IMG/VR virus record: IMGVR_UViG_3300000517_000182
Coordinates: 1-59,022 of that record
Length of the DNA: 59,022 nucleotides
Direction: 5' to 3' (one strand)
Source: a virus
Below the pieces are notes generated by a model, which was not told the origin of the DNA, ran no database searches, and saw nothing but the letters and a program-made list of their open reading frames with translations. Position numbers and translations under genes: made by a program. The number at the start of each line of letters is the position of its first letter. Within the stretch, counting starts at the first letter, position 1. Shown here one piece after another: positions 1,339 to 35,314 of the stretch.

Positions 1339-2096
1339 TGGCGCACTATAGATCAATCTTTGTATCAGACCTACACCTCGGCGCACGAGCAAGTGAAGCA
1401 GAACTATTCTGCGACTTCCTAAAAAACAATACCTGTGACAATCTATTTCTTGTAGGAGATATCATAGATGGCTGGCGTCTTAAACGCAAATGGTATTGGC
1501 CGCAAAGTCATACAAATGCTGTAAGAAGAATATTGACAGCAGCAAAGCGTGACACACGAGTGTATTATATTCCAGGCAACCACGACGAAGGCATAAGAAA
1601 GTTCTTGGCGTTTGATATTACCTTTGGAAGAATAAAGTTCTTTGACAGATACACTCATATTGGCGCTAATGGAAAACGCTATCTTGTTATACACGGTGAC
1701 CAGTTTGACGGTCTAATGATGCCTAATATGAAGTGGCTGATGCATGTAGGTGATGTAGCCTACAACATGCTGGTGTGGCTAAACACTCATCTAAACACCG
1801 TGCGCGGTTGGTTGGGCAGAGACTACTGGAGTTTATCACGCTTTCTTAAAAGTCGCACAAAAAGCGCTCTCAACTACATACATTCTTTCGAAGAACACCT
1901 CGCAGACTATTGTGTTGAACACGGCTATGACGGTGTAATCTGCGGGCACATACATACACCTACTGTAAAACAAATACGAGGTGTTACCTACTATAATGAC
2001 GGAGACTTCTGCGAAAGTTGCTCTGCTCTTGTAGAACACACAACAGGAGAGTTTGAACTCATCTACTGGCATGGCACGAATACTTCTAGTAACTGA
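1338..2096 (+). CDS. plcP: PlcP-like metallophosphoesterase (LpxH-related), lipid remodelling
   Basis: 252-residue calcineurin-like phosphoesterase. Metal-binding motifs are in order: SDLHLG (D11, H13), GDIID (D41), GNHDE (81-84), IHGDQFD (118-124) and CGHIH (H204, H206). The blocks YWPQSH, YWSLSRF and GDFCESC match the PlcP branch of the LpxH-like family better than true LpxH. PlcP proteins release the head group of phospholipids during phosphate starvation so that diacylglycerol can be turned into glycolipid. The gene is translationally coupled to ctaD and overlaps the following glycosyltransferase by 26 nt, the same pairing as the bacterial plcP-agt operon. That neighbour is the main reason to prefer PlcP over a lipid A hydrolase. 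Function is inferred from family and context. Confidence 0.82.
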   Translation: MAHYRSIFVSDLHLGARASEAELFCDFLKNNTCDNLFLVGDIIDGWRLKRKWYWPQSHTNAVRRILTAAKRDTRVYYIPGNHDEGIRKFLAFDITFGRIKFFDRYTHIGANGKRYLVIHGDQFDGLMMPNMKWLMHVGDVAYNMLVWLNTHLNTVRGWLGRDYWSLSRFLKSRTKSALNYIHSFEEHLADYCVEHGYDGVICGHIHTPTVKQIRGVTYYNDGDFCESCSALVEHTTGEFELIYWHGTNTSSN

Positions 2097-3081
2097 TGCT
2101 TGGAAACCGCAGACAAACGGTGTAGTCACTACTCTTGAGAATCTCGTTGATCAAGCAGAACTACACGGCGACGAGATTATGGTATATCATCCTGGCCGCT
2201 GCAAGTGTCGTTTCCCTCTTCCAGGTTATAAAGAAATAGATGTTGCGTTTCCTCAAAGACAGGAAGTTGAAAATCTTGTATGTAATTCTCAATGGGATCA
2301 CATACATATCGCAACCCCAGAAGGATTTGTAGGAAGAAGATTTGCGAGAGAATGCAGAAAGAGAAAGGTAAAGTTTTCCGCAAGTTGCCACACAAAGTTT
2401 CCAGAGTTTGTTAATTATCGTTTTCCCTTCGTGCCTGTAAAGTTAGGCTGGCGATGGATGAAGAGAAGGTATAGAGATGCTACAAAAATACTGGTACCTT
2501 CTCTCTCAATGAAACGGGAATTGGAAGACTGGGGCTTTGAACAGGAGATCGTAGTATGGAGTAGAGGCACAGACAGAACACTATTCCATCCTCCTTCTCG
2601 TTCTCCTGATAACTCAAAAAAAATCCTGCTTTGTGTGAGCAGAGTAAGTCACGAAAAAGGTCTTGATGATTTCTGTGGATTGACCGTTCCTAACACTCGA
2701 AAAATAGTAGTAGGAGATGGTCCCTATCTTGATACTCTCAAAAACAGATATCCTCAAGTAGAGTTTGTGGGCAAGAAAACAGGTGAAGAACTTGCGAGAT
2801 ACTATCAAACAGCAGATGTGTTTGTGTTTCCTTCTCGAGCAGATACATTTGGTGTTGTAATGCTTGAAGCGATTGCGTGTGGAACACCTGTTGCTGCCTA
2901 TCCTGTGACAGGGCCTAAAGATATCATTGTGGAGGGCAAGAACGGCAGCACCTACCCGCATCTTGCTCCTGCTATAGAACGAGCACTGGAGGTAAGTAGA
3001 TACGCCACCTACCTAACCAGTCTTGATTGGACTTGGGAAGAGTGCTACGATCAGTTTAAACAAAATCTACTTGACAGATAG
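2071..3081 (+). CDS. agt: GT4 glycosyltransferase, Agt-like (glycolipid synthesis)
   Basis: 336-residue GT-B fold glycosyltransferase of family 4. The N-terminal loop PQTNGVVTT and the C-terminal nucleotide-sugar block SRADTFGVVMLEA, with its glutamate pair, are both present, along with the VSRVSHEKGL linker motif. The start is the ATG encoding MARILLVTD, inside the end of plcP; an upstream in-frame ATG would add six residues that do not fit the family. Enzymes of this group paired with PlcP transfer a sugar to diacylglycerol and make glucosyl- or glucuronosyl-lipids in phosphate-starved marine bacteria. It ends 15 nt inside a convergent lipase gene. GT4 is secure; acceptor and sugar are inference from the pairing. 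Confidence 0.8.
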   Translation: MARILLVTDAWKPQTNGVVTTLENLVDQAELHGDEIMVYHPGRCKCRFPLPGYKEIDVAFPQRQEVENLVCNSQWDHIHIATPEGFVGRRFARECRKRKVKFSASCHTKFPEFVNYRFPFVPVKLGWRWMKRRYRDATKILVPSLSMKRELEDWGFEQEIVVWSRGTDRTLFHPPSRSPDNSKKILLCVSRVSHEKGLDDFCGLTVPNTRKIVVGDGPYLDTLKNRYPQVEFVGKKTGEELARYYQTADVFVFPSRADTFGVVMLEAIACGTPVAAYPVTGPKDIIVEGKNGSTYPHLAPAIERALEVSRYATYLTSLDWTWEECYDQFKQNLLDR

Positions 3082-3855
3082 GCCTTGAAGATTTTCCTGT
3101 CCGCGCTCGTAACTTTCGCAGTGGTAAATGTAAAGACCTATTGCGTGGTCAGAAAAGGAATCTATCTTGCCCTTCTTAATACCAAACCATAGTCCGCGCA
3201 TTCTGTCTTTAAATTTCTGCCAGCCTGTTGGCTTTCTTACATTGCCGTAAGCATTTATGTAATGTTCTACACCAGTATGACGATATCCCATTACGGTGAA
3301 AGGCACACGAGCAACTATGTCGTTGTTATTAACCCAGCGATGATGAACACAGGAGAAGGATTTTACATACTTGGGCCATCCTACTCTGGGAGAACCATAG
3401 GTATATAGTTCTTCTGGATCTCTCAACTGTTCGCAGTGTTCGCATCTGAAAGCCATAAGAGTTGCCATTGCTCCTCCCAGTGAATGACCTGTGAACCATA
3501 GTTTTTTGTCTGACTTTAAAACGTCTCTTTCTACCTGCATCCACAGATAATCAACGTAGCCTTTGAATCCTGCGTGAACTCTGCTGACAGTTTCTGAAGG
3601 CGCAGGCCAAGCATTTAGATCTGCACGGATGTCTTTGAACGCTGTTGGTTCTGTGCCTCTACAGGCAACGACAATATCTGTGTCTGATTCTAAGAGATAG
3701 GCCTGTGATTCGCCTAGATTGTAGAATCTTCTCACAGAAAAACCAAGTTGCTTTGCTTGTTTTCTTGTGGCTTTGTCTGTATAATATGCTAGTTGAGATA
3801 TTTTTGCAAAAAGCACAGAACGCTGTTTGAAATTGAGTTGGGAAATCGCCGTCAT
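3067..3855 (-). CDS. Class 3 lipase-like alpha/beta hydrolase
   Basis: 262-residue protein with the nucleophile elbow GHSLGGAM (S125), a probable acid D179 in NNNDIVARVP and a probable catalytic H237 in FSDHAIGLYIYH. The blocks CRGTE and YGSPRVG are typical of fungal-type class 3 lipases. No signal peptide is seen, so it would act in the cytoplasm or from the virion. I chose the internal ATG encoding MTAISQLNF because the longer frame runs through the divergent promoter region; a GAGGG-type Shine-Dalgarno and a late promoter precede it. Together with PlcP and Agt it makes a lipid-handling group. Substrate is unknown; phospholipid or acylglycerol are both possible. Confidence 0.82.
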   Translation of the reverse strand: MTAISQLNFKQRSVLFAKISQLAYYTDKATRKQAKQLGFSVRRFYNLGESQAYLLESDTDIVVACRGTEPTAFKDIRADLNAWPAPSETVSRVHAGFKGYVDYLWMQVERDVLKSDKKLWFTGHSLGGAMATLMAFRCEHCEQLRDPEELYTYGSPRVGWPKYVKSFSCVHHRWVNNNDIVARVPFTVMGYRHTGVEHYINAYGNVRKPTGWQKFKDRMRGLWFGIKKGKIDSFSDHAIGLYIYHCESYERGQENLQGLSVK

Positions 3856-3878
3856 TTTAAAGCCCTCGTTTGATAATA

Positions 3879-3886
3879 TATTTAAC
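3879..3886 (-). promoter_or_regulatory. T4-type late promoter (GTTAAATA)
   Basis: On the minus strand this reads GTTAAATA, 23 nt before the lipase start, with the ribosome binding site in between. It lies back to back with a plus-strand late motif eleven bases away, forming a divergent late promoter pair. Confidence 0.5.
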
Positions 3887-3896
3887 TGTTCTCTAC

Positions 3897-3904
3897 AATA
3901 AATA
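3897..3904 (+). promoter_or_regulatory. T4-type late promoter (AATAAATA)
   Basis: Match to the T4 late consensus TATAAATA, 18 nt before the start of the 83-residue gene that opens the leader-peptide block. GGAG lies between motif and start. Confidence 0.6.
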
Positions 3905-3922
3905 CTACATTGGAGTTGCCGT

Positions 3923-4174
3923 ATGAAAAAACGCACGAGAAGTATCCTACAAGAGCTAAACTCACTGGGCCAGCGCCAGGATACAGACCTACAGATAGAA
4001 GCAACCGCATCAAACATTATAGAAAGTGCTGCGAATCTACTGGAAAGAATTGGCACTGTTTACGATGAAGAAACCGCAGACGAACTAGAGCGCCGTTTTC
4101 TTAATTCAATCAAGAGCGGTGATCCTAAAAAGTTCAAGCGTGGTATTCAAAAAGTAATAGAGAACAAGGCATGA
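3923..4174 (+). CDS. Small conserved phage protein, possible leader SILQE
   Basis: 83-residue charged, probably helical protein, of a kind I recognise in T4-like marine phages but without known function. The C-terminal half holds a conserved-looking block (YDEETADELERR, then FKRGIQKV). Residues 8-11 read ILQE, an (I/L)-x-E signature like the T4 prohead protease site shared with the next genes. It sits first in the late block behind its own late promoter and overlaps the next start by 4 nt. Possibly a virion or core component; this is inference. Confidence 0.7.
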   Translation: MKKRTRSILQELNSLGQRQDTDLQIEATASNIIESAANLLERIGTVYDEETADELERRFLNSIKSGDPKKFKRGIQKVIENKA

Positions 4175-5016
4175 AACTGAAAGAAGGCGGCGCAATGCCA
4201 GGCGTAGGTGCTATACACATAGATGAAATAGAACCCACGCTGGACGCACTAGAAAGCAAACTTGGCATAGACCTTAAGAACAATACACTTGGCTCTGTAG
4301 GCAAGCGAGAGTTTTCTGGCGACATCGATGTAGCCCTCCAAATTGATCCAGAAGACATTCCAGACTTTGTAGAGAAATTGAAATCCATACCTGGCATTGA
4401 CGAAGTAGCAAAAAGTTCTGTGATAATGACCAAAGTGCCGATACAGAACTATGATGCGAATAAACAGCCGGAAGGCAGAGAACGCACAGGATTTGTGCAA
4501 GTAGATTTTATGCCAGGAGACCCGGGATGGTTGAAAACCTACTATCACTCTCCAAAAGAATCCGAATCCAAATACAAGGGTGTGTTGCGAAACATTCTTG
4601 TTTCTTCTATTGCGCTACACTATGAGAGAGAAGATTCTGAAGAAACCATAGAAGACGGCAGACCCCTTGAAACAGAACGCTGGCTGTTTTCTCCCACAGA
4701 AGGCCTAGTAAGAGTAAAGCGCACACCTGTCCCAAAAAAGTCAGGCGAAGGTTATACGAAAAAGAACAAAAACGAAATCATAGGCGAACCAAAAAAGACA
4801 GCAGACGAAATAGCAGACGCATTGGGATTAGACTCTGCTAGAGATCTAAACTCCTATGAAAGTCTCAAAGCCGCAATAGAAAAAAACTATCCTCAAGATT
4901 TAGTAGCGAAAATTCTAGATGATTTTAAAAACAACTCACAGGTTCAGGATGTAGGTGTGCCAGATGATTTGAAGAACGAACAGATAGAAAGAATTAGGGA
5001 GTTGGCAGGCTTATGA
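4171..5016 (+). CDS. Pol-beta-type nucleotidyltransferase-like protein
   Basis: 281 residues. The block LGSVGKREFSGDIDVALQI (about residues 40-60) has the GS...SGDID pattern of the polymerase-beta nucleotidyltransferase superfamily, with the two acidic metal ligands D-I-D; a third acidic residue is plausible in FVQVDFMPG. Similar proteins occur in T4-like cyanophages. The N-terminus begins MKLKE followed by GG, matching the (I/L)-x-E leader pattern of its neighbours. It forms a run with two further nucleotidyltransferase-like genes, each overlapping or abutting the next. Substrate is unknown: it could modify RNA, a protein or a small molecule. Confidence 0.72.
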   Translation: MKLKEGGAMPGVGAIHIDEIEPTLDALESKLGIDLKNNTLGSVGKREFSGDIDVALQIDPEDIPDFVEKLKSIPGIDEVAKSSVIMTKVPIQNYDANKQPEGRERTGFVQVDFMPGDPGWLKTYYHSPKESESKYKGVLRNILVSSIALHYEREDSEETIEDGRPLETERWLFSPTEGLVRVKRTPVPKKSGEGYTKKNKNEIIGEPKKTADEIADALGLDSARDLNSYESLKAAIEKNYPQDLVAKILDDFKNNSQVQDVGVPDDLKNEQIERIRELAGL

Positions 5017-6164
5017 GATTGAGAGAGATATTTCAGCCCCAAGACTTTGAGTTTGTTCTCACAGAAGCAGAAGCGCGAATACAACACGCTGAAGATATTG
5101 TGTTCTGGGAAGGCTCAAAAGGCGCTGTGCGTGCTCTAAATGCACTTCGCAGTTTAGAAGGCAAAGGACACGAAAAAGTCACAATCAAGTGGGACGGTTC
5201 GCCTGCAATAATATTTGGTAGAAACGAAGACGGTGAGTTTATTCTTACAGACAAGTCAGGATGGGGCGCCAAAGGCTATGACGGCAAGGTAAAGTCAGGA
5301 GAAGCACTGGAAGACATGCTGCTGTCACGAAGCGGAGGTAAGAACAGAGACAACCCCGATTATCAAGCCTTCGCTGCTAAAATGAAAAGTATATTTGACG
5401 AATACGAGCGTGCTGTGCCCGAAGACTTCAGAGGATTTTTCAAAGGCGATTTGTTATACTTCTCAACTCCGCCTGTAAAAAACAACAACTATGTATTCAA
5501 ACCAAATGTAGTAGAGTATGCTGTAGATGTAGATTCTGACCTCGGCAAGAGAATAGGCCAATCTAAAACAGGGGTTGTAATACATAGACAAATGGATCTA
5601 GAAGGCAACGAATCTGAAGTGCAAGATGCTGACGTATTCCAAGGTTCAGAAGTTCTAGTTGTTCCGCCTGTGTCAGTAGAAAAGCCTGCGGAAATAGATA
5701 ACGAGCAAACAGACCAACTCGCACAAGTAATTAAACAGAACGCAGCAGGCCTAGATGAACTGTTGAACAAAGACACGCTCACAGAAAACAAGATGAAAGA
5801 CTTTCCTAATATGCTGTATGCATACACAAACTCCAAGGTAGACACAGGTCTAGAAAACCTAGGAGAAGATTTTGTTGCGTGGCTAGAAAGACAGCCTAGA
5901 ATATCTGAACGCAAAAAAGAAAATGTCAAAAACTACATACAGGAACACGAAAAAGCATTTGCTGCACTATGGCGTGTTGTTAGTTCTATTATGACTGTAA
6001 AGAATCGAATAATAGATCAGTTCGATACACAAAGCACTTCCGTCAAACAGAGCATGGCAGGCGAAAAAGGTGGTGAAGGTTATGTGTTGGCACACCCAGA
6101 AGGCGATATTAAACTCGTGCCGAGACAGACATTTTCGAGAATAAATCGAGCAGTGGAGAGATAG
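5013..6164 (+). CDS. Nucleotidyltransferase/ligase-like protein with KWDG motif
   Basis: 383 residues, related to a conserved T4-like cyanophage family. The segment VTIKWDGSPAIIFGR carries a K-x-D-G signature as in motif I of ATP-dependent ligases and mRNA-capping enzymes; FKGDLLYF and KTGVVIH could be later motifs of that fold. The ligase relation is inference from short motifs. The leader MRLREIFQ...VLTE gives two (I/L)-x-E sites (LRE at 3-5, LTE at 16-18). It overlaps the preceding gene by 4 nt and abuts the following one, and is probably made late with them. Confidence 0.68.
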   Translation: MRLREIFQPQDFEFVLTEAEARIQHAEDIVFWEGSKGAVRALNALRSLEGKGHEKVTIKWDGSPAIIFGRNEDGEFILTDKSGWGAKGYDGKVKSGEALEDMLLSRSGGKNRDNPDYQAFAAKMKSIFDEYERAVPEDFRGFFKGDLLYFSTPPVKNNNYVFKPNVVEYAVDVDSDLGKRIGQSKTGVVIHRQMDLEGNESEVQDADVFQGSEVLVVPPVSVEKPAEIDNEQTDQLAQVIKQNAAGLDELLNKDTLTENKMKDFPNMLYAYTNSKVDTGLENLGEDFVAWLERQPRISERKKENVKNYIQEHEKAFAALWRVVSSIMTVKNRIIDQFDTQSTSVKQSMAGEKGGEGYVLAHPEGDIKLVPRQTFSRINRAVER

Positions 6165-7154
6165 GTGAGACTAAGAGAAATTACAGAAGCAAAACAAGAC
6201 ACTGCGGTAATGGCATTCGGCAGGATGAATCCGCCTACAATAGGTCATCAGAAACTGGTAGACAAGATAAAAAGTCTGCCAGGCGATCCCTATCTATTTC
6301 TTTCTCAAAGCCAAAAGCCAAAGACAGATCCACTAGACTTTCAGACCAAACTGAAGTTTGCGAAGTTTTTCTTTCCTGGTATCACAATAGGATCTCCCCA
6401 AGTAAAAACAATCATACAAGCACTTGACAAGATACACGACCTTGGTTATAAGAATCTTGTCTATGTAGCAGGGTCTGATCGGGTAGACGATTTTGAAGCA
6501 CTTATAAACAAATACAACGGCGGCGAAGGCTATGACTTTGATTCTATTCAAGTAGTTTCCGCCGGCGAAAGAGATCCTGATGCGAAAGGTGCAGAAGGCA
6601 TGAGCGCATCAAAAATGCGAGAACTTGCAAGATCAGAAGACTTTGAACAGTTCGCACAGGGCGTGCCTGATCAAAATCTAGCAGACGAATTATACACAGC
6701 CGTAAGAAAAGGCATGGGACTAACACAAGGAGATTTAGAAATGTCTGACAGCAGAGAATTTAGAGACTATATGGAACACATCGAGAGCATTGTGAAAGAA
6801 CATCTCAGAGAATTCGAAGACTATGAAATGGGTGATCCAGACGAGGACGACGAAGAACCAGAAGGTCAAGGTTTCAAGGGCACCCCTATGTATGATCAGT
6901 TAGGTAAATTGCTTGACTCTCAAGACTCACCTAAACCAATCAATACCGTTACCACAGATGATGGTGAAGAACACGAAGTATCAGCAGATCAAGCCAAGGC
7001 ACTTAGACTGCTTGCTACTACAGAAAAAGTAAAACCAGAAGTCAAGAAAGCATTTCTAAGAGATATTCAAGGTTCAGACGGTCTTGTAGATTTTCTTGAT
7101 CAAACTTCTTATCACGAAATGGCTCATCTATTTGTAAAAAGGTATCTACATTAA
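6165..7154 (+). CDS. NMNAT/cytidylyltransferase-like protein with capsid-type leader
   Basis: 329 residues with a GTG start behind a purine-rich site (GTGGAGAG). Residues about 17-32 read AFGRMNPPTIGHQKL, the T/HxGH-type nucleotide-binding loop of adenylyl/cytidylyltransferases, and SASKMREL near residue 147 matches the second motif of NMN adenylyltransferases. Beyond residue 185 there is an acidic tail of unknown function. The start MRLREITEA gives an ITE site followed by A, close to the leader of T4 internal proteins. Such proteins are known from T4-like cyanophages. A role in NAD metabolism or in modifying host components on entry is possible. Confidence 0.75.
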   Translation: MRLREITEAKQDTAVMAFGRMNPPTIGHQKLVDKIKSLPGDPYLFLSQSQKPKTDPLDFQTKLKFAKFFFPGITIGSPQVKTIIQALDKIHDLGYKNLVYVAGSDRVDDFEALINKYNGGEGYDFDSIQVVSAGERDPDAKGAEGMSASKMRELARSEDFEQFAQGVPDQNLADELYTAVRKGMGLTQGDLEMSDSREFRDYMEHIESIVKEHLREFEDYEMGDPDEDDEEPEGQGFKGTPMYDQLGKLLDSQDSPKPINTVTTDDGEEHEVSADQAKALRLLATTEKVKPEVKKAFLRDIQGSDGLVDFLDQTSYHEMAHLFVKRYLH

Positions 7155-7423
7155 TGGATCTGAGAAAACTTATTGACCTTGTAGAAGACGACAAAGAGGA
7201 CGAAGAAGGAAAACTAAAGGGCTTTGATAGCACAACAATGAAGGCGCTTGCTGCTATCAGAGGCCAATATCCTAATGCTCCGGATGACCTGTCTGCGTTG
7301 CTGCGTCATCTAACACACGTCGATAATGATAGTGATACCGCAGACGAGGATCACTCTGCAAGGATAGAAGATCTTGAAAAAAGAGTAGCAGAATTGGAAA
7401 GCATGATCAGAGACAGAAACTAA
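7154..7423 (+). CDS. Small acidic protein, leader-type N-terminus
   Basis: 89 residues, acidic, with a heptad-like C-terminus (IEDLEKRVAELESMI) that could form a short coiled coil. The start MDLRKLIDLVE contains LVE followed by D, again an (I/L)-x-E site. The start codon overlaps the stop of the preceding gene by one base. No known function. Confidence 0.65.
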   Translation: MDLRKLIDLVEDDKEDEEGKLKGFDSTTMKALAAIRGQYPNAPDDLSALLRHLTHVDNDSDTADEDHSARIEDLEKRVAELESMIRDRN

Positions 7424-8304
7424 TGGACTTTATTAGAGAAATTACAGAAGCAAGAATGACTAGAACTCAGTCACAGACTGAGAAGTTGAGTTATCTTGAC
7501 TGCTGCGAAAGAGCCTATCTCATTTTGCTCTCTCTAGAATTGATGAGGCAGTTTCCTGACTTTGAAAGAAAGACAATAGCCTACGCACGCAATACTGCAA
7601 GATACACAGGCTATGACTATTTTAGAATGAACGCAACAGATCTATATAACTTCCTCTATTTTGCTACAGGCAACGACAAAGCACTCGAACGTTTACGCGA
7701 CCCGGAAGATGCCAAACAGGCAAGGCAGAGAACTCACGTGCCTATTATGGCAATTAATAGATATCTTTCCAAATTAGGCGCAGGCCAAACTCCTAGCAAC
7801 GTATCTGCGTTTTTTATGGAAGCAGAAAAAAGCATGCGAGTGAATAATTCTTCCTATAAAAGCATAAGAAGAGTCGTTACAAACTTTCGCAAAGCGTCAA
7901 ACAAAGATATAAGAACTGCTACTACAAGACTGCTGTATGCTGCAAGAGCAAAACTAAGATCCAGCGACATAATAAATGATCTAGAAAATCTAGCAGACGA
8001 AAGAAATCTACAATCTGCGTCTGTTAAAGATCGAGAACCTTCTGTATCTAAACCAGACGAAATTGTCACAAACAAAGACCTTGTATTTTTACAAAAAATT
8101 GTAGGCAAAGACAAGTTGTTCCTTGCAATAAAGTATATAGAACTAGCACAGGAAGGAAAAACCATACCTTCAAATGTCGCTAGAGCGATGACTCCTGCGA
8201 TAGATCTTGTAGTTGATCTAGTAAAAGGCGGTCCCGAGTATGTAGAGCGTCTATTACAACTTCAAAAACGTGCAAAATCTCAAAGAAAACGCCGTAAAAG
8301 ATAA
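7423..8304 (+). CDS. Hypothetical phage protein with MDFIREITEA leader
   Basis: 293 residues, unknown family. Helical throughout, with a very basic C-terminus (RAKSQRKRRKR) suggesting nucleic-acid contact. The first nine residues end in ITE followed by A, the same leader as the NMNAT-like protein 1.2 kb upstream although the rest of the two proteins is unrelated. It overlaps the preceding stop by one base and closes this leader-protein operon, with a late promoter across its 3' end for the next gene. A virion-packaged DNA-binding protein is a reasonable guess. Confidence 0.68.
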   Translation: MDFIREITEARMTRTQSQTEKLSYLDCCERAYLILLSLELMRQFPDFERKTIAYARNTARYTGYDYFRMNATDLYNFLYFATGNDKALERLRDPEDAKQARQRTHVPIMAINRYLSKLGAGQTPSNVSAFFMEAEKSMRVNNSSYKSIRRVVTNFRKASNKDIRTATTRLLYAARAKLRSSDIINDLENLADERNLQSASVKDREPSVSKPDEIVTNKDLVFLQKIVGKDKLFLAIKYIELAQEGKTIPSNVARAMTPAIDLVVDLVKGGPEYVERLLQLQKRAKSQRKRRKR

Positions 8305-8307
8305 ATA
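8300..8307 (+). promoter_or_regulatory. T4-type late promoter (GATAAATA)
   Basis: Late consensus match overlapping the stop of the preceding gene, about 48 nt ahead of a small, strongly initiated gene that ends at a terminator. Confidence 0.6.
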
Positions 8308-8355
8308 ATTGCAAGTCATCCATAAAGGATAGACAAGATATCAAGGAGAAATAAA

Positions 8356-8748
8356 ATGCCTGAAGTAACAAAGGTAAACCCAATTCTAAGAAACGAAGCA
8401 CGTTCTTTCAACGGAAAGTCCGTATCACACTTCACACTAACAATCACACCAGACATCACTGATTCACTAGGACCAGACGGTGCTCTACAAGAAATCCTAC
8501 AGACTGTAACTGAAAATGCAACACTAGTTCTCGTAGGAGAAGCAACTTCTAGCGCACTAGATGTATTTGTTGAAGGCGAGTTCCCAAGCAGCGACTATGG
8601 TACTGGTAACGATCTAACCTTCGCAGAACACCTAGAAGACCAAATACAGGCTCTAGGCGAAGTTGATGGTAAAGATCTAAGTGGTACAACCGTTGCTCTA
8701 ACTGCAACTTTCTTCGCAGACGACGTAGTTGCTGACTACGCCGAGTAA
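8356..8748 (+). CDS. Probable abundant virion protein, unknown function
   Basis: 130 residues, beta-rich and acidic, with no recognisable domain. It has a strong AAGGAG site, is preceded by a late promoter and followed at once by a strong factor-independent terminator, so it forms a highly expressed single-gene late unit. Codon choice also looks optimised (repeated CTA, GCA, ACA). This pattern fits a small capsid-decoration or tail protein, but that is inference. Confidence 0.68.
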   Translation: MPEVTKVNPILRNEARSFNGKSVSHFTLTITPDITDSLGPDGALQEILQTVTENATLVLVGEATSSALDVFVEGEFPSSDYGTGNDLTFAEHLEDQIQALGEVDGKDLSGTTVALTATFFADDVVADYAE

Positions 8749-8772
8749 GATTCCTAACTACCTTAGGATCGA

Positions 8773-8800
8773 GGGCTCATATTATATGGGCCCTTTTTTT
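8773..8800 (+). terminator. Rho-independent terminator
   Basis: Stem GGGCTCAT/ATGGGCCC (8 bp with one G-T pair) with loop ATTAT, followed directly by seven T. It ends the single-gene unit in front of it. Confidence 0.9.
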
Positions 8801-8806
8801 ATGACT

Positions 8807-8814
8807 CGTAAATA
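8807..8814 (+). promoter_or_regulatory. Late promoter placed 5 nt before an ATG
   Basis: CGTAAATA followed by five bases and then ATG. With T4 spacing, transcription would start at or next to the start codon, giving a leaderless mRNA. One of six such arrangements in the window. Confidence 0.5.
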
Positions 8815-8819
8815 CGACA

Positions 8820-9209
8820 ATGATTTATGTTTTACGAACTTTGGTTGATATAACCGAAACAGGCGAACATCACGGACCTAGCAAACTAGAAGTCAATCAG
8901 CAGGCAAATTATAATACTGTGATACAATGTCTCGGTCTAAGGGCAAATCCTGCTCCTTTAAAAACTGTATCGCATGTAGATAGCATAAAAGACCTAGAGT
9001 TCGGAACAGCATTCAAAGGCAAGCAGAGATACTGGGAGTGTGAATTTGAAATAGAATACGGTGATCCTGGCATGGAAGCATTTCTAGAAGATTTTGATCT
9101 AGTGCCTGTGATTACCGATCTAGACGAAACTGCAGAGATCTACCCGCCTATTTTTTCCACAAAAGATCCAAAAACCAAAAACACAGTTATCTTACCATAT
9201 AAAGATTAG
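8820..9209 (+). CDS. Conserved T4-like marine phage protein
   Basis: 129 residues. The opening MIYVLRTLVDITETGEHHG, the NQQANYNTVIQCLGLRA block and the late FLEDFDLVPVI block match a conserved protein I know from T4-like cyanophages, function unknown. No Shine-Dalgarno can be seen, because a late promoter ends only five bases before the ATG. It lies in the virion-gene block, so a structural or assembly role is likely. Confidence 0.75.
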   Translation: MIYVLRTLVDITETGEHHGPSKLEVNQQANYNTVIQCLGLRANPAPLKTVSHVDSIKDLEFGTAFKGKQRYWECEFEIEYGDPGMEAFLEDFDLVPVITDLDETAEIYPPIFSTKDPKTKNTVILPYKD

Positions 9210-9282
9210 AACGATTCTTGATAAGTAACTGCGTAGAGGCAAACAAGGCACATTCGCAAGGCGGCAAGACAGAACGGAGTGA

Positions 9283-9531
9283 ATGATGTCTGATCCTATG
9301 GGTAATACCACAAAACTTGAAAAAGAAAGCCTCGAAGCCCACGTAGACCTCTGCGCTCTGCGTTATCAAAATCTTGACGACAGGCTTACTAAGATAGAAA
9401 GCAAAGTTGAAGTCATTCACGAAGACATCACAAACGGTAACAAGTCTATGATCAAAGTAATTGTAGGCGCTGTTGGCACTGTTGTAGCTGGCTTACTCTC
9501 CACAATTGTTGTTCTACTTGTAAATTTCTAG
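9283..9531 (+). CDS. Small coiled-coil membrane protein
   Basis: 82 residues: a heptad-like segment (about 28-52) and a C-terminal hydrophobic segment, IKVIVGAVGTVVAGLL and onwards. Either of two adjacent ATGs could be used. The layout (coiled coil plus one membrane anchor) resembles holin-like or spanin-like small proteins and the minus-strand trio near the end of the window in mirrored order. No known family. Confidence 0.65.
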   Translation: MMSDPMGNTTKLEKESLEAHVDLCALRYQNLDDRLTKIESKVEVIHEDITNGNKSMIKVIVGAVGTVVAGLLSTIVVLLVNF

Positions 9532-9539
9532 CATAAATA
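9532..9539 (+). promoter_or_regulatory. Late promoter placed 5 nt before an ATG
   Basis: CATAAATA, then GTTTT, then ATG of the first basic paralogue. Same promoter-to-start distance as at the 8.8 kb gene. Confidence 0.55.
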
Positions 9540-9544
9540 GTTTT

Positions 9545-9832
9545 ATGCGTATCAGCGAAATCACAGAAGGTTTGACTGAAAAACAGATCTGGGCACGTTC
9601 TGGTCACAAAGTCGTGCGAAAGTTTAGATGCACCTCCGGCCCTAGAAAAGGAAGAATTGTTCCTTCTATGAGCAAGTGTTACGGAGCACCAGATACTAAA
9701 GCACGAGCTCAACTAAAAAGAACAAAAGCAAGACTGGGCAAAAAAATGTCCAGGAAAGCTCGCAGAACAAAAAGAGTAAATCCAGCATCACGCAGAGTGC
9801 AAGCCCTAAACAAGGCAACTAGAAGACGATGA
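9545..9832 (+). CDS. Very basic protein with MRISEITE leader (paralogue 1)
   Basis: 95 residues. After a leader MRISEITE followed by G, the protein is strongly basic: VRKFRC, SGPRKGRI, then a Lys/Arg-rich tail. Two cysteines (RCTSGPRKGR and SKCYG) recur in the paralogue that follows. Related proteins occur in T4-like cyanophages next to the nucleotidyltransferase genes. Leader plus high positive charge suggests packaging with, and binding to, DNA, like T4 internal proteins. The start has no Shine-Dalgarno and lies 5 nt after a late promoter. Confidence 0.75.
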   Translation: MRISEITEGLTEKQIWARSGHKVVRKFRCTSGPRKGRIVPSMSKCYGAPDTKARAQLKRTKARLGKKMSRKARRTKRVNPASRRVQALNKATRRR

Positions 9833-10095
9833 AAGTAGAAGAAATTCTAGAAGTTGCAACGAACGCTTGGAAAAGAACGGGTAATAAAACCGTTCGCAAA
9901 TTTCGCTGTAAAAGCGGGCCAAGAAAAGGCAGAGTTATGGCTTCACCTGCTTCCTGCCATGCTCCTCTCAAAACCAAAAGCAGTGCTAGACTGAAAAGAA
10001 CAAAATCCAGAATGGCAGGACAGCGAGCTTATAAAAGCAATCTTACTCGCCGCCGCAATCCATATTCAAGAAGATTAAAGAATCTCAATAGGTAA
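9829..10095 (+). CDS. Very basic protein with MKVEEILE leader (paralogue 2)
   Basis: 88 residues, a tandem diverged copy of the preceding gene: both share KxVRKFRC, SGPRKGR, a second Cys about 15 residues on, ARLKRTK and RRxNPxSRR. The start MKVEEILE followed by V keeps the (I/L)-x-E site although the leader sequence differs. It overlaps paralogue 1 by 4 nt. Likely the same virion-internal nucleic-acid-binding role, by inference. Confidence 0.75.
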   Translation: MKVEEILEVATNAWKRTGNKTVRKFRCKSGPRKGRVMASPASCHAPLKTKSSARLKRTKSRMAGQRAYKSNLTRRRNPYSRRLKNLNR

Positions 10096-10100
10096 CACAG

Positions 10101-10376
10101 ATGAAAATATCAGAAATTTTAAATGAACAGGTGTCAGGAAAGGTCACAAGAGTTAGACCTAATGAGATAGTAGTGAGAGATCCAGAAAGCGGTATAGAAA
10201 CAAAAATCCCCAAGAAAGTCAATGAACCAGGAACTGTGACGAGAGACAAGGACGGAAAGTTAGTGCTTGATCCTGAAACGCCAGGCGGAGTCGCCGACGA
10301 CATAGAACCAGGTGAAGAAATTGATGTCGAACCAGAATCTGCTCAAGGAACAGTAGGCACTCAAGGAACAGTGTAA
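10101..10376 (+). CDS. Small acidic protein with MKISEILNE leader
   Basis: 91 residues, rich in Glu, Asp, Pro and Gly, with a repeat at the end (SAQGTVG and TQGTV). The leader MKISEILNE again offers an (I/L)-x-E site. Strong acidity contrasts with the two basic proteins just upstream, as if it balances or chaperones them; that is speculation. Start and stop are tightly packed with both neighbours. Confidence 0.65.
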   Translation: MKISEILNEQVSGKVTRVRPNEIVVRDPESGIETKIPKKVNEPGTVTRDKDGKLVLDPETPGGVADDIEPGEEIDVEPESAQGTVGTQGTV

Positions 10377-10570
10377 TGCTGTTAGACGAACTCAAAATCT
10401 ATACTTCAAACGAAGAAGATCGTGTTTTAGAAAAAATAGACCAAGCGCATTCTATTGAAACTTTTAACGCACGAGATCGTTTCGTAATTGAAAACCTCAT
10501 ACGCAAGAGTTTGGTAATTAAAATACCCTATCAAAATTCTTATCTTGTGGTAAAAAATGAATTTAATTAA
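10376..10570 (+). CDS. Hypothetical small protein
   Basis: 64 residues with no known domain. It starts on the last base of the preceding stop codon and overlaps the next gene by 14 nt, so it is part of the same operon. More AT-rich than its neighbours. Confidence 0.5.
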   Translation: MLLDELKIYTSNEEDRVLEKIDQAHSIETFNARDRFVIENLIRKSLVIKIPYQNSYLVVKNEFN

Positions 10571-10967
10571 AGAAATTGAAAATCTAATTGACTCACCTGT
10601 TGATCCTTCTCTGTTTCCTGTCAAGAAAGGAAATAGAATTTTCTTACTAGACTGCGTGATAAAAAAACAAAACGGCGTATATCAAGTCTTTAAAAACAAA
10701 ACACTTCAAAAACAGTTCTACACTAAAATTGCTGCTGTTGCCTACGCTAAAAACAGCCATCGAAAAAATACTAACGATTTAGAAATTCAAAGACTAGACC
10801 GCTTGCTGGAGAAGAATCTCATAGATTGTGTTTTTTATAGAAATCAAATAGAAAACACAGAAAAAGAAGAAACACGTCAATGTACGAAAATTAGATTCGA
10901 AGACTCCCGCGCTCATATCAAGGATATACGTGACAAGTTGCGGTCATTTATATTCCCTCAAAGCTAA
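10557..10967 (+). CDS. Hypothetical protein, basic
   Basis: 136 residues, Lys-rich, no recognised motif. The N-terminus (MNLIKEIENLID) has IKE at residues 4-6, a weak version of the leader seen in this block. It overlaps the gene before it and its 3' end contains the late promoter for the large gene that follows. Confidence 0.55.
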   Translation: MNLIKEIENLIDSPVDPSLFPVKKGNRIFLLDCVIKKQNGVYQVFKNKTLQKQFYTKIAAVAYAKNSHRKNTNDLEIQRLDRLLEKNLIDCVFYRNQIENTEKEETRQCTKIRFEDSRAHIKDIRDKLRSFIFPQS

Positions 10968-10970
10968 ATA
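10963..10970 (+). promoter_or_regulatory. T4-type late promoter (GCTAAATA)
   Basis: GCTAAATA overlapping the preceding stop codon, 27 nt ahead of the 515-residue gene; AGGAAGAG ribosome binding site lies between. Confidence 0.6.
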
Positions 10971-10997
10971 CACTTAACAAATACTAGGAAGAGTATA

Positions 10998-12545
10998 ATG
11001 AACATCAGTGACATTTCAAAACCTGTGACAGCAAAAGCACTTAATGAAAGTTTAGAAAAACGTTTTGGTAAGAGAATTAGACTAGAAGATTTTTCTCTTG
11101 ACCAACTTTACAATGCTCGTAATAAACTAAGAACAACCCTTAGTCAAATTGAAACAAATGAATCATTCGGCGCTGTTCATCATTCAGACAGCTATCAGAA
11201 AAACAGACTCTTCCTAGATGTTTTAAATGCTGAAATCAATGAACGTGAAGCAGTTCAAGTCACAGAGAAAGCAGAATCAGAAGCACAGCAGAAAGCAGCA
11301 GGCGCAGCATTAGCAGCGAAGCGCGGTGAGATTCCTGTATCTGAGCTGGTAGGTGCTTCGAAAGAAATGTATGACAGCATGAGCGAAAAGGACCTAGAAG
11401 ACTTCGCGGGCACAAAACACAAAGGCATTCCTGCCAAGAAAGGAGAATCTGTCGAAGAAGGCGCTACTGATACAAAGGCCAAAATGAAGCAAATTCTATC
11501 TGGCTTTAAGCCTATATCAAAGTCAGAAAAAGTCGTCAAAGCATTCAGTTACAAGCCTGGCAAAGAGTTCGAATCGATTCCAGTCGTCATCACAAAAGAT
11601 CCAAAGGTCGATGAAGAAACAGATTATCCCTTTGCTTTGTATATCAAGAGCGACGATTCGAGCGAAATGCTTCATCATGAATACTACGACAATATGGAAA
11701 CTGCTATTTCAGATGCCAAGCATGAAATAAAAGACAAGATTGACCGTCCAAGAGACGACAACTACATTCCGGGACAACAGAGACTGCCTTTTGAAGGAGC
11801 ATTTGACGACGATGTTCCGCCAGAAGATCACAACGACCTAGACTATGAGGGTGGCATGGCACACAAACAACTTTCTACAATCGAAGATGCTGCCGACGAA
11901 CTCGGTGAAATTATTCAAACAGACGAAAATCTACCAGAGTGGGTTCAAAAGAAAATTGTTCTTGCAATGAGCTATATCGACACAGCAAGAGATTATATGA
12001 AATCTGCAAACGAAGTAGATCAAGAAAGAGGAATGCCAATGGAGTCTGCTCTGAGAGAAGGCGCAGAAGAACAAGCAGAACTTGTTATGGCTGCCAAGAA
12101 CATGGTAGATAAAATCACAGGCTGGATGGAAGACACAGCAGAAATGCAGACAGAATCCATGCTTGAGCTGGGTGATTCGATTCGCGACGAACTTGGTGAA
12201 AACGAGTCAGAACAATTTACTTCTACCGTGAAGCCTGCGCTCGAAAGCCTTTATCAATCACTAGAACAGACACGTGAGACTCTTGTATCAGGTGTAAGAC
12301 TTGTCGCAGGCGAAGAAGTTCAAGACATGCCTGGTGACGACCTTGACACAGAAATGGAACCAACCGTTGATCAAGAAGAAGGAGATCTTGACCTTGACCT
12401 AGACACTGAAGGCGGTGAAGAGGAAGATGAATTCGCTGCTGCAGAACCAGCTGCAGGCGGCGAGGAAGAAGCAGGACGTGAAAAACGTGAATCTGTAGAG
12501 CGTTCAAGACGCCTTGCATCGCTGCTAACTTCAAAAAAAAAGTAA
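10998..12545 (+). CDS. T4-like virion/prohead core-type structural protein
   Basis: 515 residues. Two parts match a protein conserved in T4-like cyanophages and pelagiphages: the N-terminal block (LNESLEKRFGKRIRLEDF..., then NARNKLRTTLSQIETNES) and the middle/C-terminal helices (LPEWVQKKIVLAMSYIDTARDY; GWMEDTAEMQTESMLELG). The last 120 residues are extremely acidic and then turn basic (SRRLASLLTSKKK), typical of scaffold or core proteins. The start MNISDIS resembles the neighbouring leaders, but I see no clear cleavage site. Annotated relatives are called virion structural protein; an exact role in prohead assembly is inference. Confidence 0.75.
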   Translation: MNISDISKPVTAKALNESLEKRFGKRIRLEDFSLDQLYNARNKLRTTLSQIETNESFGAVHHSDSYQKNRLFLDVLNAEINEREAVQVTEKAESEAQQKAAGAALAAKRGEIPVSELVGASKEMYDSMSEKDLEDFAGTKHKGIPAKKGESVEEGATDTKAKMKQILSGFKPISKSEKVVKAFSYKPGKEFESIPVVITKDPKVDEETDYPFALYIKSDDSSEMLHHEYYDNMETAISDAKHEIKDKIDRPRDDNYIPGQQRLPFEGAFDDDVPPEDHNDLDYEGGMAHKQLSTIEDAADELGEIIQTDENLPEWVQKKIVLAMSYIDTARDYMKSANEVDQERGMPMESALREGAEEQAELVMAAKNMVDKITGWMEDTAEMQTESMLELGDSIRDELGENESEQFTSTVKPALESLYQSLEQTRETLVSGVRLVAGEEVQDMPGDDLDTEMEPTVDQEEGDLDLDLDTEGGEEEDEFAAAEPAAGGEEEAGREKRESVERSRRLASLLTSKKK

Positions 12546-12577
12546 ATGAAAGCGATCCGCAAACACAGAAAATAGTT

Positions 12578-12919
12578 ATGGCTTTAAGAACCATTAAAGG
12601 TTCTGCAGAGTCTAAAAAACAGCCTGTTTTTGCACATTTCGATAAACCTACCCCAGAAACCAAAAAGCCCGATTCTATCAATGTCAATATTAACGACATT
12701 ATGGAAAAGATGGGTCTTCCTCAATTTACCTACGATTCATTCAAAGCAGCCTACGATGCTGATCCACAAATACAAGAAATTGTAGATAACTTTAGTTCTG
12801 AAGGCATTGAAATAAATGCTGAAGAAAAGGATGACGGTGTTGTAGATAAAGACACAGACAGTAACGCTGTTAGCAAGATGGCCAAGGCAGCTACTGATCT
12901 TTCCGACAATATAGGTTGA
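12578..12919 (+). CDS. Hypothetical protein
   Basis: 113 residues, acidic, no recognised domain; NVNINDIMEKMGLPQF is its most structured-looking part. No good ribosome binding site is visible. It is the last gene before an early-type promoter whose -35 box overlaps its stop codon. Confidence 0.55.
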   Translation: MALRTIKGSAESKKQPVFAHFDKPTPETKKPDSINVNINDIMEKMGLPQFTYDSFKAAYDADPQIQEIVDNFSSEGIEINAEEKDDGVVDKDTDSNAVSKMAKAATDLSDNIG

Positions 12920-12943
12920 CACAAATTCTTAATCTCGTATAAT
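12916..12943 (+). promoter_or_regulatory. Early (sigma70-like) promoter TTGACA-16-TATAAT
   Basis: Perfect -35 and -10 boxes with a 16-nt spacer, about 25 nt ahead of the GTG start of the exonuclease gene. Marks a switch from the late block to early/middle expression. Confidence 0.8.
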
Positions 12944-12968
12944 TGTATGATTACAAAAAGGATTTTCT

Positions 12969-13673
12969 GTGACTTTAATTGTTGAAAAATTTAACTATCC
13001 CGAAATAAAACGCAAGAATGTAGACGGCAAAAGAAAATATCTAACCCCCGACGGCAACGCAGTTGCTAGTGTAACTACTATACTAGATGCCACGGCAGAT
13101 AAAACCGGCCTGCTAGAATGGCGCAAGAGAGTAGGCGAACACAAAGCAAACGAAATTACCAAAGAAGCTGCTGCTATTGGTACACGTTTGCACAAGTATC
13201 TAGAAGACTATGTTGAAAAAGGGGAGTGGCCAGAACCCGGTTCCAATCCTTATTCTAAAAAAGCACACTGCATGGCATCTAAAATCAAACAGGAAGCCTT
13301 TCCTAAAATAACAGAAGTATGGGGTTCTGAAGTTAATCTCTATATGCCAAATATGTATGCGGGAACCACCGACTTGGTAGGAACATACAACGGCAAACCT
13401 GCAATTATGGACTTCAAGCAGGCGAATAAAAAGAAAAAAATAGAATGGATCGAAAACTATTTCTTACAGCTAGTGGCCTATGCAGAGTGCCATAATGAAC
13501 TCTACGGCACAAATATACAGGAAGGACATATCTTTATGTGTACTCGCGGCACAAACAACCTAGAACTGGGCGGAGAAGAATACCAGCAGTTTGATATATG
13601 GCCTGCAGACTATGCAGAATGGCGTCACGAATGGTATAACCGGGTATATGCCTACTATGAACAATCTGTTTGA
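12969..13673 (+). CDS. PD-(D/E)XK nuclease, RecB-like exonuclease
   Basis: 234 residues, GTG start. The nuclease core is visible as GTRLHKYLEDYVE (helix with the conserved H), then YAGTTDLVGTYNGKPAIMDFKQANK, in which D and the D-x-K pair fit the PD-(D/E)XK signature, and FLQLVAYAECHNELYG, the Q-x-x-x-Y helix of RecB-family nucleases. This is a conserved T4-like cyanophage gene, thought to act in DNA processing or degradation of host DNA. It is served by its own early promoter although it sits between virion genes. Confidence 0.85.
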   Translation: MTLIVEKFNYPEIKRKNVDGKRKYLTPDGNAVASVTTILDATADKTGLLEWRKRVGEHKANEITKEAAAIGTRLHKYLEDYVEKGEWPEPGSNPYSKKAHCMASKIKQEAFPKITEVWGSEVNLYMPNMYAGTTDLVGTYNGKPAIMDFKQANKKKKIEWIENYFLQLVAYAECHNELYGTNIQEGHIFMCTRGTNNLELGGEEYQQFDIWPADYAEWRHEWYNRVYAYYEQSV

Positions 13674-13675
13674 GC

Positions 13676-13683
13676 GATAAATA
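13676..13683 (+). promoter_or_regulatory. T4-type late promoter (GATAAATA)
   Basis: GATAAATA just after the exonuclease stop, 19 nt before the GTG chosen for the tail fibre gene, with AGGAG between. Confidence 0.65.
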
Positions 13684-13702
13684 CTTTAAACAGGAGAATA
13701 GA

Positions 13703-15361: not shown

Positions 15362-15786
15362 TGTTTTCAAACATTCAATCATTCGAACAACGTCTTGCCT
15401 CCTGGGCAAAATACAGAGAAGAGATACCTGAACAAGCAGATCCAATCCAAGCCACGATCGACTTGTATGAGCAAGCACCTTGGGTAAGTATTCACACAGA
15501 TCCATATGATCGTTCTACTTGGCCAAACCCCTGGGAATTGATCAAAGAAAATCAGTACTGTGAGTTTTGTAAACTGCTAGGAATATGTTATACTTTACAA
15601 TTAACTGACTGCTTTTCGGAGGAGGAGTTCGAGATACATATACGACGCAGCGACGGAACAGGAGAGCTTTATTACTTGCTCTTTGTAGGTGAAAGAGTCG
15701 TTGGCTATAATGGAGAGACACATGTTGCAAATTCTGAACTCCCTTCTGATCTTAAACTGCAACACCGATATACAGTGTCTCTCTAA
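15361..15786 (+). CDS. Conserved T4-like phage protein next to tail fibre
   Basis: 141 residues. The block DPYDRSTWPNPWELIKENQYCEFCKLLGICYTLQLT is the hallmark of a conserved T4-like cyanophage protein of unknown function, normally located beside fibre genes. Its ATG overlaps the fibre stop codon by one base, so the two are coupled. A fibre chaperone is conceivable but unproven. Confidence 0.75.
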   Translation: MFSNIQSFEQRLASWAKYREEIPEQADPIQATIDLYEQAPWVSIHTDPYDRSTWPNPWELIKENQYCEFCKLLGICYTLQLTDCFSEEEFEIHIRRSDGTGELYYLLFVGERVVGYNGETHVANSELPSDLKLQHRYTVSL

Positions 15787-15868
15787 CACACGAAGTAGAT
15801 AAGAACACAGGTGCCTCGTCTGAAGGACGACGAAGTCATCACCATCTAAAAAATAAGGAGAAAAAGAA

Positions 15869-16840: not shown

Positions 16841-16862
16841 AACAGAAACAAAGGGGATAAGA

Positions 16863-22576: not shown

Positions 22577-22579
22577 ATA
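22572..22579 (+). promoter_or_regulatory. Possible late promoter (AATAAATA) for tmRNA
   Basis: Late-type motif that would start transcription near the 5' end of the tmRNA acceptor piece. Only the motif and position support it. Confidence 0.45.
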
Positions 22580-33784: not shown

Positions 33785-35314
33785 ATGCGTTTTCACGAGT
33801 TTAGGATATTAGAAAGCAAACTTTTTGAATCTAACAGAGGTATTCTTGGCACTGTAATAGATACTCAATCTGGTAGAGGCGATAGTTTTACCAAAGAAGA
33901 CGGAACCGAAGTTAGAGCAACAAACGCCTGGAAATTCCCGCAAGAAGAAACAGATCTTCGCTATGAAAACAAACAACCTGATAGCGAAGACGAAGAACCA
34001 ATACCCGCAGAAGATCAATTTGCGGAAGAATTAAAAAATGCAACTGGTCTTGACATAAACAATGTGAATTGGACAGGAGGGCAAAAGCCTGCTACTGGAT
34101 TTGCTGCTCTTGTAGTCGAATTACAAAGCGACAAAGGCAAGGAATATGTAGGGAAATATTTCCGTGCAAAAAGATCCGACGGTCATATATTTTGGCAGGT
34201 AAGTCACTTTATCAAAGATCTTAATACTATAGGAATCAAACTTCAAAGCAAAAAGGCTGCTACTAGTAAAGGCACCAGCGGCGCAATCAACTTAGGGCCA
34301 AAAGAAGTCGGAGTTACAGATAGAGTTATAAATCTTGCAAATTTAGTTTCTGAAGTTCGAAAAGGTGTACAAGCCAACGATAAGATACCTCCACAAGAAA
34401 AAGTAGCGGTAGCAGAATTGATTGAAAATCTTGGAGGAGATCCTGTAACAATCAATCCAGAATACCGAGCCAATTATGAAGTGCAATTAGGAGAAGTTGC
34501 TGCACCATTGGCGATTACAAGGGGAATAAATGTATCAGGATCAATACAGGAAGCAGAAAATCAGCTACTGGATCTTATAGACCCCGGAACTAAATTTACC
34601 AGCATTCAACAGGTAGAATATCCTGATAACATAGCAGAAAAACTAGTTGATAGCTATCTTATTACACCTAATGGTAGTAGAATAGGCGTAAGTTCAAAAG
34701 ACAAAAAAGGTGGTGCAGCAGCTAGTATATCATCTATAATCGAAACCATTGAAAACAAAATAGACACCATAGAAGAACGTGTTCCTGATTTTAAATCGCG
34801 TTATTCACAATACCTTGATTGGTTAGATACTATAAAAAAATCAACAGGAAAAAGCGTTGCTTACAGCTTAGCCGCGAAAATGGGCATAATATCGGCTGAC
34901 ACTGCTAGAGAAGCCTTTGAAGCAATGAAAGAAACTCCTGGAGACGCGGAGAAACTGCGCGAGATAGACAACGGAAGATTTTATGATTTAACTATAGGAT
35001 TCGAAGGCTATGATCCTAAAACATCCCACCCTATGTATAAAATACACTATCACGCAGCCGCGAGTCTTGCTCGAATAGTTGCTAACAAATTCAACGAAGA
35101 TCAAGAAAATGTGAGAAGATTCTTTTCAACCGTATTAGAAAGTTCAAACATGATTCAGGTTCTTACTTCGTTAAAATCAAAAGGCGACCAAGGTCAATTT
35201 AGTGATTTTAAAGTTATCTATCCGCCTGTTTTTGAAGGAAGTATTAAGTTAGAAGCAGGAAGTTACTTCTTTGCTCAAAAACCGCCACAAGGTTTTACCT
35301 TTAAGATAAAGTAA
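33785..35314 (+). CDS. Large hypothetical protein with leader MRFHEFRILE
   Basis: 509 residues. The first ten end in ILE followed by S, matching the (I/L)-x-E leader of the 4-13 kb block 20 kb away. Residues about 295-312 (SYLITPNGSRIGVSSKDKKGG) resemble a nuclease-type strand pair ending in S-x-K, which could be a PD-(D/E)XK core, but that is weak. The C-terminal 100 residues form a beta-rich domain ending in FFAQKPPQGF. Late promoter; likely a virion-packaged enzyme. Conserved hypothetical proteins of this kind occur in marine T4-like phages. Confidence 0.7.
   Translation: MRFHEFRILESKLFESNRGILGTVIDTQSGRGDSFTKEDGTEVRATNAWKFPQEETDLRYENKQPDSEDEEPIPAEDQFAEELKNATGLDINNVNWTGGQKPATGFAALVVELQSDKGKEYVGKYFRAKRSDGHIFWQVSHFIKDLNTIGIKLQSKKAATSKGTSGAINLGPKEVGVTDRVINLANLVSEVRKGVQANDKIPPQEKVAVAELIENLGGDPVTINPEYRANYEVQLGEVAAPLAITRGINVSGSIQEAENQLLDLIDPGTKFTSIQQVEYPDNIAEKLVDSYLITPNGSRIGVSSKDKKGGAAASISSIIETIENKIDTIEERVPDFKSRYSQYLDWLDTIKKSTGKSVAYSLAAKMGIISADTAREAFEAMKETPGDAEKLREIDNGRFYDLTIGFEGYDPKTSHPMYKIHYHAAASLARIVANKFNEDQENVRRFFSTVLESSNMIQVLTSLKSKGDQGQFSDFKVIYPPVFEGSIKLEAGSYFFAQKPPQGFTFKIK

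Follow-up and report, generated by a model that had tools for sequence, protein, structure and literature searches.

Short N-terminal leaders ending in (I/L)-x-E as candidate capsid-targeting propeptides in a fragment of a large marine T4-related myovirus

Introduction

Which proteins does a large phage pack into its head and deliver together with its DNA? The co-injected cargo of large phages is mostly unknown, and the question is raised by IMGVR_UViG_3300000517_000182, a 59-kb virus contig that was analysed over its whole length of 59,022 nucleotides (the window). Its genes at ~3.9-51 kb belong to a large T4-related myovirus of marine origin, of which the window represents a fragment. In one gene cluster (3923-12919), several proteins begin with a short peptide ending in (I/L)-x-E. 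The initial annotation had read these peptides as capsid-targeting leaders like those of T4 and predicted that their carriers are packaged into the virion, and all N-termini quoted there are indeed present in the sequence. For T4, the docking of leaders and their cutting by gp21 at L/I-x-E have been reviewed (PMC9026906); as controls we read MKTYQEFIAE/A for ipII and ipIII and MELITE/L for Alt from the T4 record (slash: cut site).

Here, we report that the leaders are very probably capsid-targeting propeptides of a T4-type system. This reading is supported by a domain-boundary test in related loci, predicted disorder in AlphaFold2 (AF2) models, leaders on syntenic genes of isolated phages, the presence of gp21 in relatives and published virion mass spectrometry (MS).

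Results

Leaders are concentrated in one gene cluster

An (I/L)-x-E ending at residues 7-12 was found in 7 of the 16 proteins encoded at 3923-12919, compared with 1.6 in shuffled sequences, and none of 5,000 shuffles reached 7, so that the comparison with a shuffled background came out in favour of the leaders. Outside the cluster, the motif occurred in 3/66 window proteins, and in ~6% of internal 12-mers. A stricter leader pattern was present in 5/16 cluster proteins versus 1/56 in the rest of the phage-like part (Fisher p = 0.0016), and the generic motif, counted without 3923 and the paralog 9829, in 5/14 versus 3/56 (p = 0.006). With all 82 window proteins pooled, the enrichment was not significant (10 versus 6.4, p = 0.1). 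As the cluster had been picked by the initial annotation, the p-values from the window are post hoc and not decisive alone; the related loci and phage S-CREM2 served as independent tests.

The typical leader reads M-(K/R)-hydrophobic-x-(E/D)-(I/L)-x-E, or is a longer version of it. The features are:

3923..4174, + strand: conserved small virion protein (PHROG 11854, virion structural protein); its SILQE is a body motif and is not counted as a leader
4171..4185, + strand: probable minimal leader MKLKE before GGAMPGVG; 28/28 anchored homologs carry hydrophobic-x-E directly before G/S-G
4186..5016, + strand: Polbeta-like nucleotidyltransferase (GS..SGDID) with a conserved G-S/T..G..SGD-D motif; the PA5oct ortholog gp253 was seen by electrospray ionization tandem mass spectrometry (ESI-MS/MS)
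5013..5066, + strand: leader MRLREIFQPQDFEFVLTE of the DUF6267/ligase-like protein; predicted cut after E18, before AEARIQHAED
5067..6164, + strand: DUF6267 body, putative RNA ligase-like nucleotidyltransferase (PF19782, 6e-37; invariant KxDG, EGxV and KxV)
6165..6188, + strand: leader VRLREITE (GTG start); predicted cut before A9; orthologs also carry leaders
6189..7154, + strand: HIGH-superfamily cytidylyl/adenylyltransferase-like cargo (PHROG 3041, 2e-53)
7154..7186, + strand: possible, weak leader MDLRKLIDLVE, read from sequence only; the 80 related loci yielded no homologs
7423..7449, + strand: leader MDFIREITE; predicted cut before ARMTRT; E9 invariant, 28 homologs
7450..8304, + strand: all-helical cargo protein, function unassigned (AF2 predicted local distance difference test score, pLDDT, 83.7)
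9545..9568, + strand: leader MRISEITE of a small basic protein; site in 14/14 anchored homologs
9829..9852, + strand: leader MKVEEILE of a paralog of 9545
10101..10127, + strand: leader MKISEILNE; strict pattern match, remote homolog MRMYELLE/N
10998..11048, + strand: probable longer leader ending ALNE/S of a DUF3008-containing protein; homologs ALNE/S, VFE/S and VME/S
33785..33814, + strand: probable leader MRFHEFRILE outside the cluster; strict pattern match, single weak homolog

The best reading of this list is that six cargo proteins are well supported and a further four are probable or possible. Since the frame at 6165 begins with GTG, its first residue is M by convention (MRLREITE). The leaders at 4171 (MKLKE/GG) and 10998 (ALNE/S) are additions to the earlier set and probably belong to it; the 10998 protein is syntenic with PA5oct gp247, a virion structural protein by MS. 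SILQE of 3923, in turn, had been listed as a leader and was ruled out: it lies within RSILxEL, a motif of the protein body that is conserved on both sides of the E and does not precede a domain. The carriers had also been called unrelated, which is mostly correct, but 9545 and 9829 are paralogs.

The expectation that all of these genes lie near late promoters did not hold. Late-promoter motifs were not enriched in the window (TATAAATA: 4 versus 2.6 expected; ATAAATA: 15 versus 12.9 expected), although a few of them precede operon heads. ATAAATA occurred 8-75 nt upstream of the starts in question only at 3898, 8301 and 33760 (starts 3923, 8356 and 33785), and another copy at 9533 is just upstream of 9545.

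Leader ends follow domain boundaries in related loci

Using a DUF6267 alignment, we collected 80 loci by an IMG/VR scan and scored 289 non-redundant open reading frames (ORFs) with ATG and Shine-Dalgarno sequence. The (I/L)-x-E ended at position 5 in 39 ORFs, at position 8 in 13 and at position 9 in 14, with a background of 2.7 per position. Of the 289 ORFs, 23 from 22 families matched the strict pattern, M(K/R)hx(1-2)(E/D/Q/K/N)h...E, compared with 0.41 in shuffles and 2.7 in shuffles with the first three residues fixed.

We then asked where the leaders end relative to the conserved domain. Domain starts were anchored by regular expressions, and homologs without an anchor match were left unscored. 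In 94 of the 95 anchored homologs from four families, a hydrophobic-x-E stands just before the conserved domain: 36/37 for DUF6267 (such as MRFNEIINE/AEARIQHAED, MKFVEIQYPYMPRVLTE/GARIQHAED and MRHSDIIIPQGWFITE/AKARIDHPED), 16/16 for 7423 (MELEFLTELHE/ARMTRN, MPTNNNNLSFIQSLGE/ARMFKT), 14/14 for 9545 and 28/28 for 4171 (MILNE/GGNVFK, MKTLRTLLE/GGNVFK). The residue after the boundary E is A, G or S in 83/94, while the leader itself varies. In agreement with this, the first invariant alignment columns are E18 in 5013 (42 homologs) and E9 in 7423 (28 homologs).

The AF2 models show the same boundary. For 5013 (42 sequences, pLDDT 91.7), residues 1-19 scored below 50 and the body above 90, so that the model predicts this segment, which spans the predicted cut at E18, to be disordered. 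Residues 1-10 of 7423 had a mean pLDDT of 48.

In four loci (L046, L055, L057 and L083), the Polbeta and ligase-like proteins are fused, and the joining stretch keeps a hydrophobic-x-E/(A/S) site; judged by sequence, these polyproteins look as if they were separated by the prohead protease. In the 10376 family, the leader pattern persists, but the E is often missing. Some DUF6267 homologs (L045, L047, L049, L050 and L054) have long basic leaders of ~35-45 residues, such as MKVEDILGKGRQRRFRGPRKPR, that end in hydrophobic-x-E and are possibly DNA-binding propeptides.

Leaders also occur in isolated phages. The 6165 orthologs carry MKKFSEIIE/A, MIKNFSQYLLE/E (C48C1) and MKNFSSFLTE/A (S-CREM2). 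No strict MRLREITE-type pattern was found in C48C1, which has FKxF-type leaders instead. Its cytidyltransferase (locus L007:11947-13353) is annotated from an internal Met, and an upstream GTG adds the leader MIKNFSQYLLE; as this record illustrates, gene callers may lose leaders. In the genome of Agrobacterium phage Atu_ph07, we counted 20 strict leaders versus 0.91 in shuffles.

Leadered proteins in published virion proteomes

The published virion proteome of the Synechococcus phage S-CREM2 includes a cytidylyltransferase, an S-adenosylmethionine (SAM) hydrolase, an APH-like kinase, a protein labelled Cas9 and several unknowns (PMC10665884). From the genome we read leaders on the nucleotidyltransferase (MKNFSSFLTE/A), the SAM lyase (MKDFDSFLEE/F), the kinase (MKRFDAFLTE/E) and gp13 (MKDLHSFLTE/Q). 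The terms 'N-terminal' and 'targeting' do not occur in PMC10665884, which makes no mention of an N-terminal leader. Counted over two genome segments with annotated head and tail genes left out, an (I/L)-x-E at positions 7-13 was present in 6/13 MS-detected and 10/122 undetected proteins (Fisher p = 0.001). Several of these genes form a minus-strand group (gp6 and gp12-gp15; locus L153:3837-13331), whose leadered proteins, a SAM lyase, a small protein and a kinase, were all detected in virions by MS. Within this group, gp12 has an internal FASFMAE/A; its 'Cas9' label is without Pfam support.

In PA5oct, most proteins of the syntenic block gp259-gp243 are annotated as structural with ESI-MS/MS evidence.

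Atu_ph07 contains a tandem array of nine diverged paralogs (locus L008:14661-22324; coding sequences, CDS, 54-62 by order), each starting with M(R/K)WxQLxE. The bodies are 21-38% identical to the first paralog. By record order the array falls into CDS 31-76, a stretch for which 29 virion proteins are reported as a whole (PMC6102473). The array belongs to PHROGs 11975/12810 (function unassigned) and gave no Pfam or PDB match. Read as motifs, its YRG, SxFCT and NE(I/V)-type sequences recall those of R-S-E mono-ADP-ribosyltransferases, T4 Alt among them; the array would be a multi-copy, injected Alt-like set.

A gp21-type protease and an L-x-E capsid site are present in relatives

A search for a gp21-like protease was negative in the 59-kb window and positive in relatives. 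The gp21 family (PF03420, Peptidase_S77) was found in 8/8 complete relatives searched. Among 14 IMG/VR contigs tested it was present in one 372-kb relative and not found in the other 13, mostly fragments. The phage's own capsid gene lies outside the window. We compared the capsid proteins of four relatives. All have L-x-E at the position where T4 gp23 is cut (FLTE/A): FLTE/T in C48C1, FLVE/N in PA5oct, PLME/N in Atu_ph07 and YLME/S in the 372-kb relative.

Discussion

How would the leaders work? In the proposed mechanism, a short disordered leader would dock the freshly synthesized protein onto the core of the prohead. A gp21-type prohead protease would then cut after the glutamate of (I/L)-x-E and free the protein inside the head, and the freed cargo would be delivered together with the DNA. 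Packaging is supported by the orthologs; docking, cleavage in this phage and injection are steps that we infer.

Several points weigh against the capsid-targeting reading. The homologs share ancestry, so the boundary counts are not independent events. The Polbeta nucleotidyltransferase orthologs of PA5oct, Phosso and Atu_ph07 are leaderless, from which we conclude that the tags are gained and lost; one of them, PA5oct gp253, was nevertheless detected in virions, and the leader is thus not the sole way in. In S-CREM2, 7 of the 13 tested virion proteins are without the motif, and the 10 undetected proteins noted above have it. The published MS shows presence, not new N-termini, and its authors consider co-purification possible for highly expressed proteins. 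Finally, the window contains no gp21, as is expected of a fragment, though not proven.

A first alternative is that the leaders serve for packaging or docking, as tails that attach to the head interior or scaffold and stay uncut. Docking and cutting are separable in T4, where an aspartate at position 10 prevents processing and leaves targeting intact (PMC9026906), and the 10376 family with its frequently missing E would fit such tails. We nevertheless regard them as improbable, because the E and the small residue after it are conserved while the docking part varies, the capsid protein keeps L-x-E at the T4 cut position and the junction sites are retained in the fused proteins.

The proteins could also be components of the tail, neck or decoration, with a leader that targets a virion substructure other than the head interior. 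The cluster does include leaderless proteins whose syntenic counterparts in PA5oct are called structural. This explanation appears very improbable: the cargo includes several enzyme-like proteins, the S-CREM2 virion contains enzymes that bear such leaders, the comparable T4 leaders work at the head core, and the motif equals the gp21 site. Chance combined with N-terminal composition bias, in which M-(K/R)-(I/L) starts are favoured for translation and E is common in charged helices, would account for so short a motif and for the pooled count in the window, but is already contradicted by the strict pattern even with the first three residues fixed, by a motif that moves with the domain boundary, however far this lies from M1, and by the genome-wide excess in Atu_ph07, and is the least credible of the three.

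The capsid-targeting reading places the window beside known systems. With T4 IPII/IPIII and Alt it shares a short N-terminal peptide ending in (I/L)-x-E, otherwise unrelated proteins and, as far as its complete relatives show, a gp21-type protease. It differs in that the typical leader is MRLREITE-like or longer, the cargo is largely enzyme-like and lies in one syntenic block, and fused cargo keeps sites between domains; cutting here is predicted from sequence. With this broad enzyme-like cargo, it is best read as a variant of the T4-type system. In the giant phages phiKZ and SPN3US, a gp21 relative likewise cleaves head proteins after x-x-E before they are ejected (PMC5694885, PMC9026906), but at S/A-x-E or A-x-E instead of (I/L)-x-E, and SPN3US propeptides mostly exceed 100 residues, whereas the leaders here mostly have 5-20. 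In S-CREM2, a leadered cytidylyltransferase of the same kind was detected in purified virions (PMC10665884). PA5oct (Arenbergviridae) has the same gene order in gp259-gp243, with many structural annotations backed by ESI-MS/MS, but few leaders. In our literature search, for which most subscription journals were outside coverage, no paper was found that ties such leaders to marine T4-like phages. A leader recognizable in the sequence, which follows domain boundaries and correlates with detection in published virion proteomes, would allow injected proteins to be predicted by genome search. It also offers a reason why cytidylyltransferases and other such enzymes recur in cyanophage virions, for which co-purification had been the open alternative.

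What might the cargo do? Three proteins had been called nucleotidyltransferase-like, which is a fair description, one by profile (6165) and two by motif (4171 and 5013). The PHROG 3041 profile classifies 6165 as a HIGH-type cytidylyl/adenylyltransferase; 529 phage records were counted for this cargo, mostly marine T4-likes. In 4171, a motif reading finds the G-S/T...SGD(I/L)D of Polbeta-type nucleotidyltransferases conserved. The 5013 protein has motif I (KxDG), motif IV (EGxV) and the K of motif V, the signature of covalent nucleotidyltransferases, and K59, D61, G62, E355, G356 and K367 are invariant in 42 homologs. Foldseek against the PDB gave weak matches of its model to tRNA/RNA ligases, none of them a significant fold match; as the top matches, fungal tRNA ligases, reached only E = 0.06, we call this putative RNA ligase-like nucleotidyltransferase just 'ligase-like'. 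PDB sequence profiles gave no significant match for any of three families (ligase-like, Polbeta and the Atu_ph07 array), and the 7423 protein had no PDB fold match at E <= 0.001.

A Polbeta nucleotidyltransferase next to an RNA ligase is reminiscent of the RlaP association known from RNA repair in jumbo phages (PMC7824862). A bolder reading, which we consider possible but less likely than not, is that the heads of marine T4-related phages and jumbo phages contain a ready-made kit for RNA repair and nucleotide transfer, which could undo host tRNA cleavage or depletion of nicotinamide adenine dinucleotide (NAD) from the first moment of infection. It would comprise the ligase-like enzyme, an RlaP-like Polbeta nucleotidyltransferase encoded next to it and the HIGH-type (NMNAT-like) nucleotidyltransferase, with a packaging tag on each of them or, in fusions, a cut site between the domains.

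Genomic setting

The cluster is a cargo island between the end of the replication block and the exonuclease/nrdAB genes. In isolated phages, the block has the same place, between the DnaB/gp41 helicase and an exonuclease or primase plus nrdA/nrdB. A syntenic locus is present in PA5oct (L003), Phosso (L002), Melnitz (L004), HTVC008M (L005), S-SSM7 (L006) and C48C1 (L007). A 15.9-kb contig from another IMG data set (L001), which starts at window position 2981, is 99.98% identical over 2981-17151.

Both ends of the window carry cell-like genes. Positions 1-3081 encode a cox1 fragment (PF00115), a metallophosphoesterase-like protein and a glycosyltransferase, and 52833-58206 encode CsgG, curlin-like repeats, FecR and a CHASE2-cyclase. 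These ends are host flanks, a chimera or unusual phage cargo; for the metallophosphoesterase-like protein on the cox1 side (1338-2096), a separate viral contig scan with this protein found no relative.

Within the phage-like part, ARAGORN predicts a transfer-messenger RNA (tmRNA) at 22553-22887 with the tag ATEEAFALAA. Further downstream, 48315-51195 contains ~10 predicted tRNA genes, including one with the anticodon tta and one of undetermined type.

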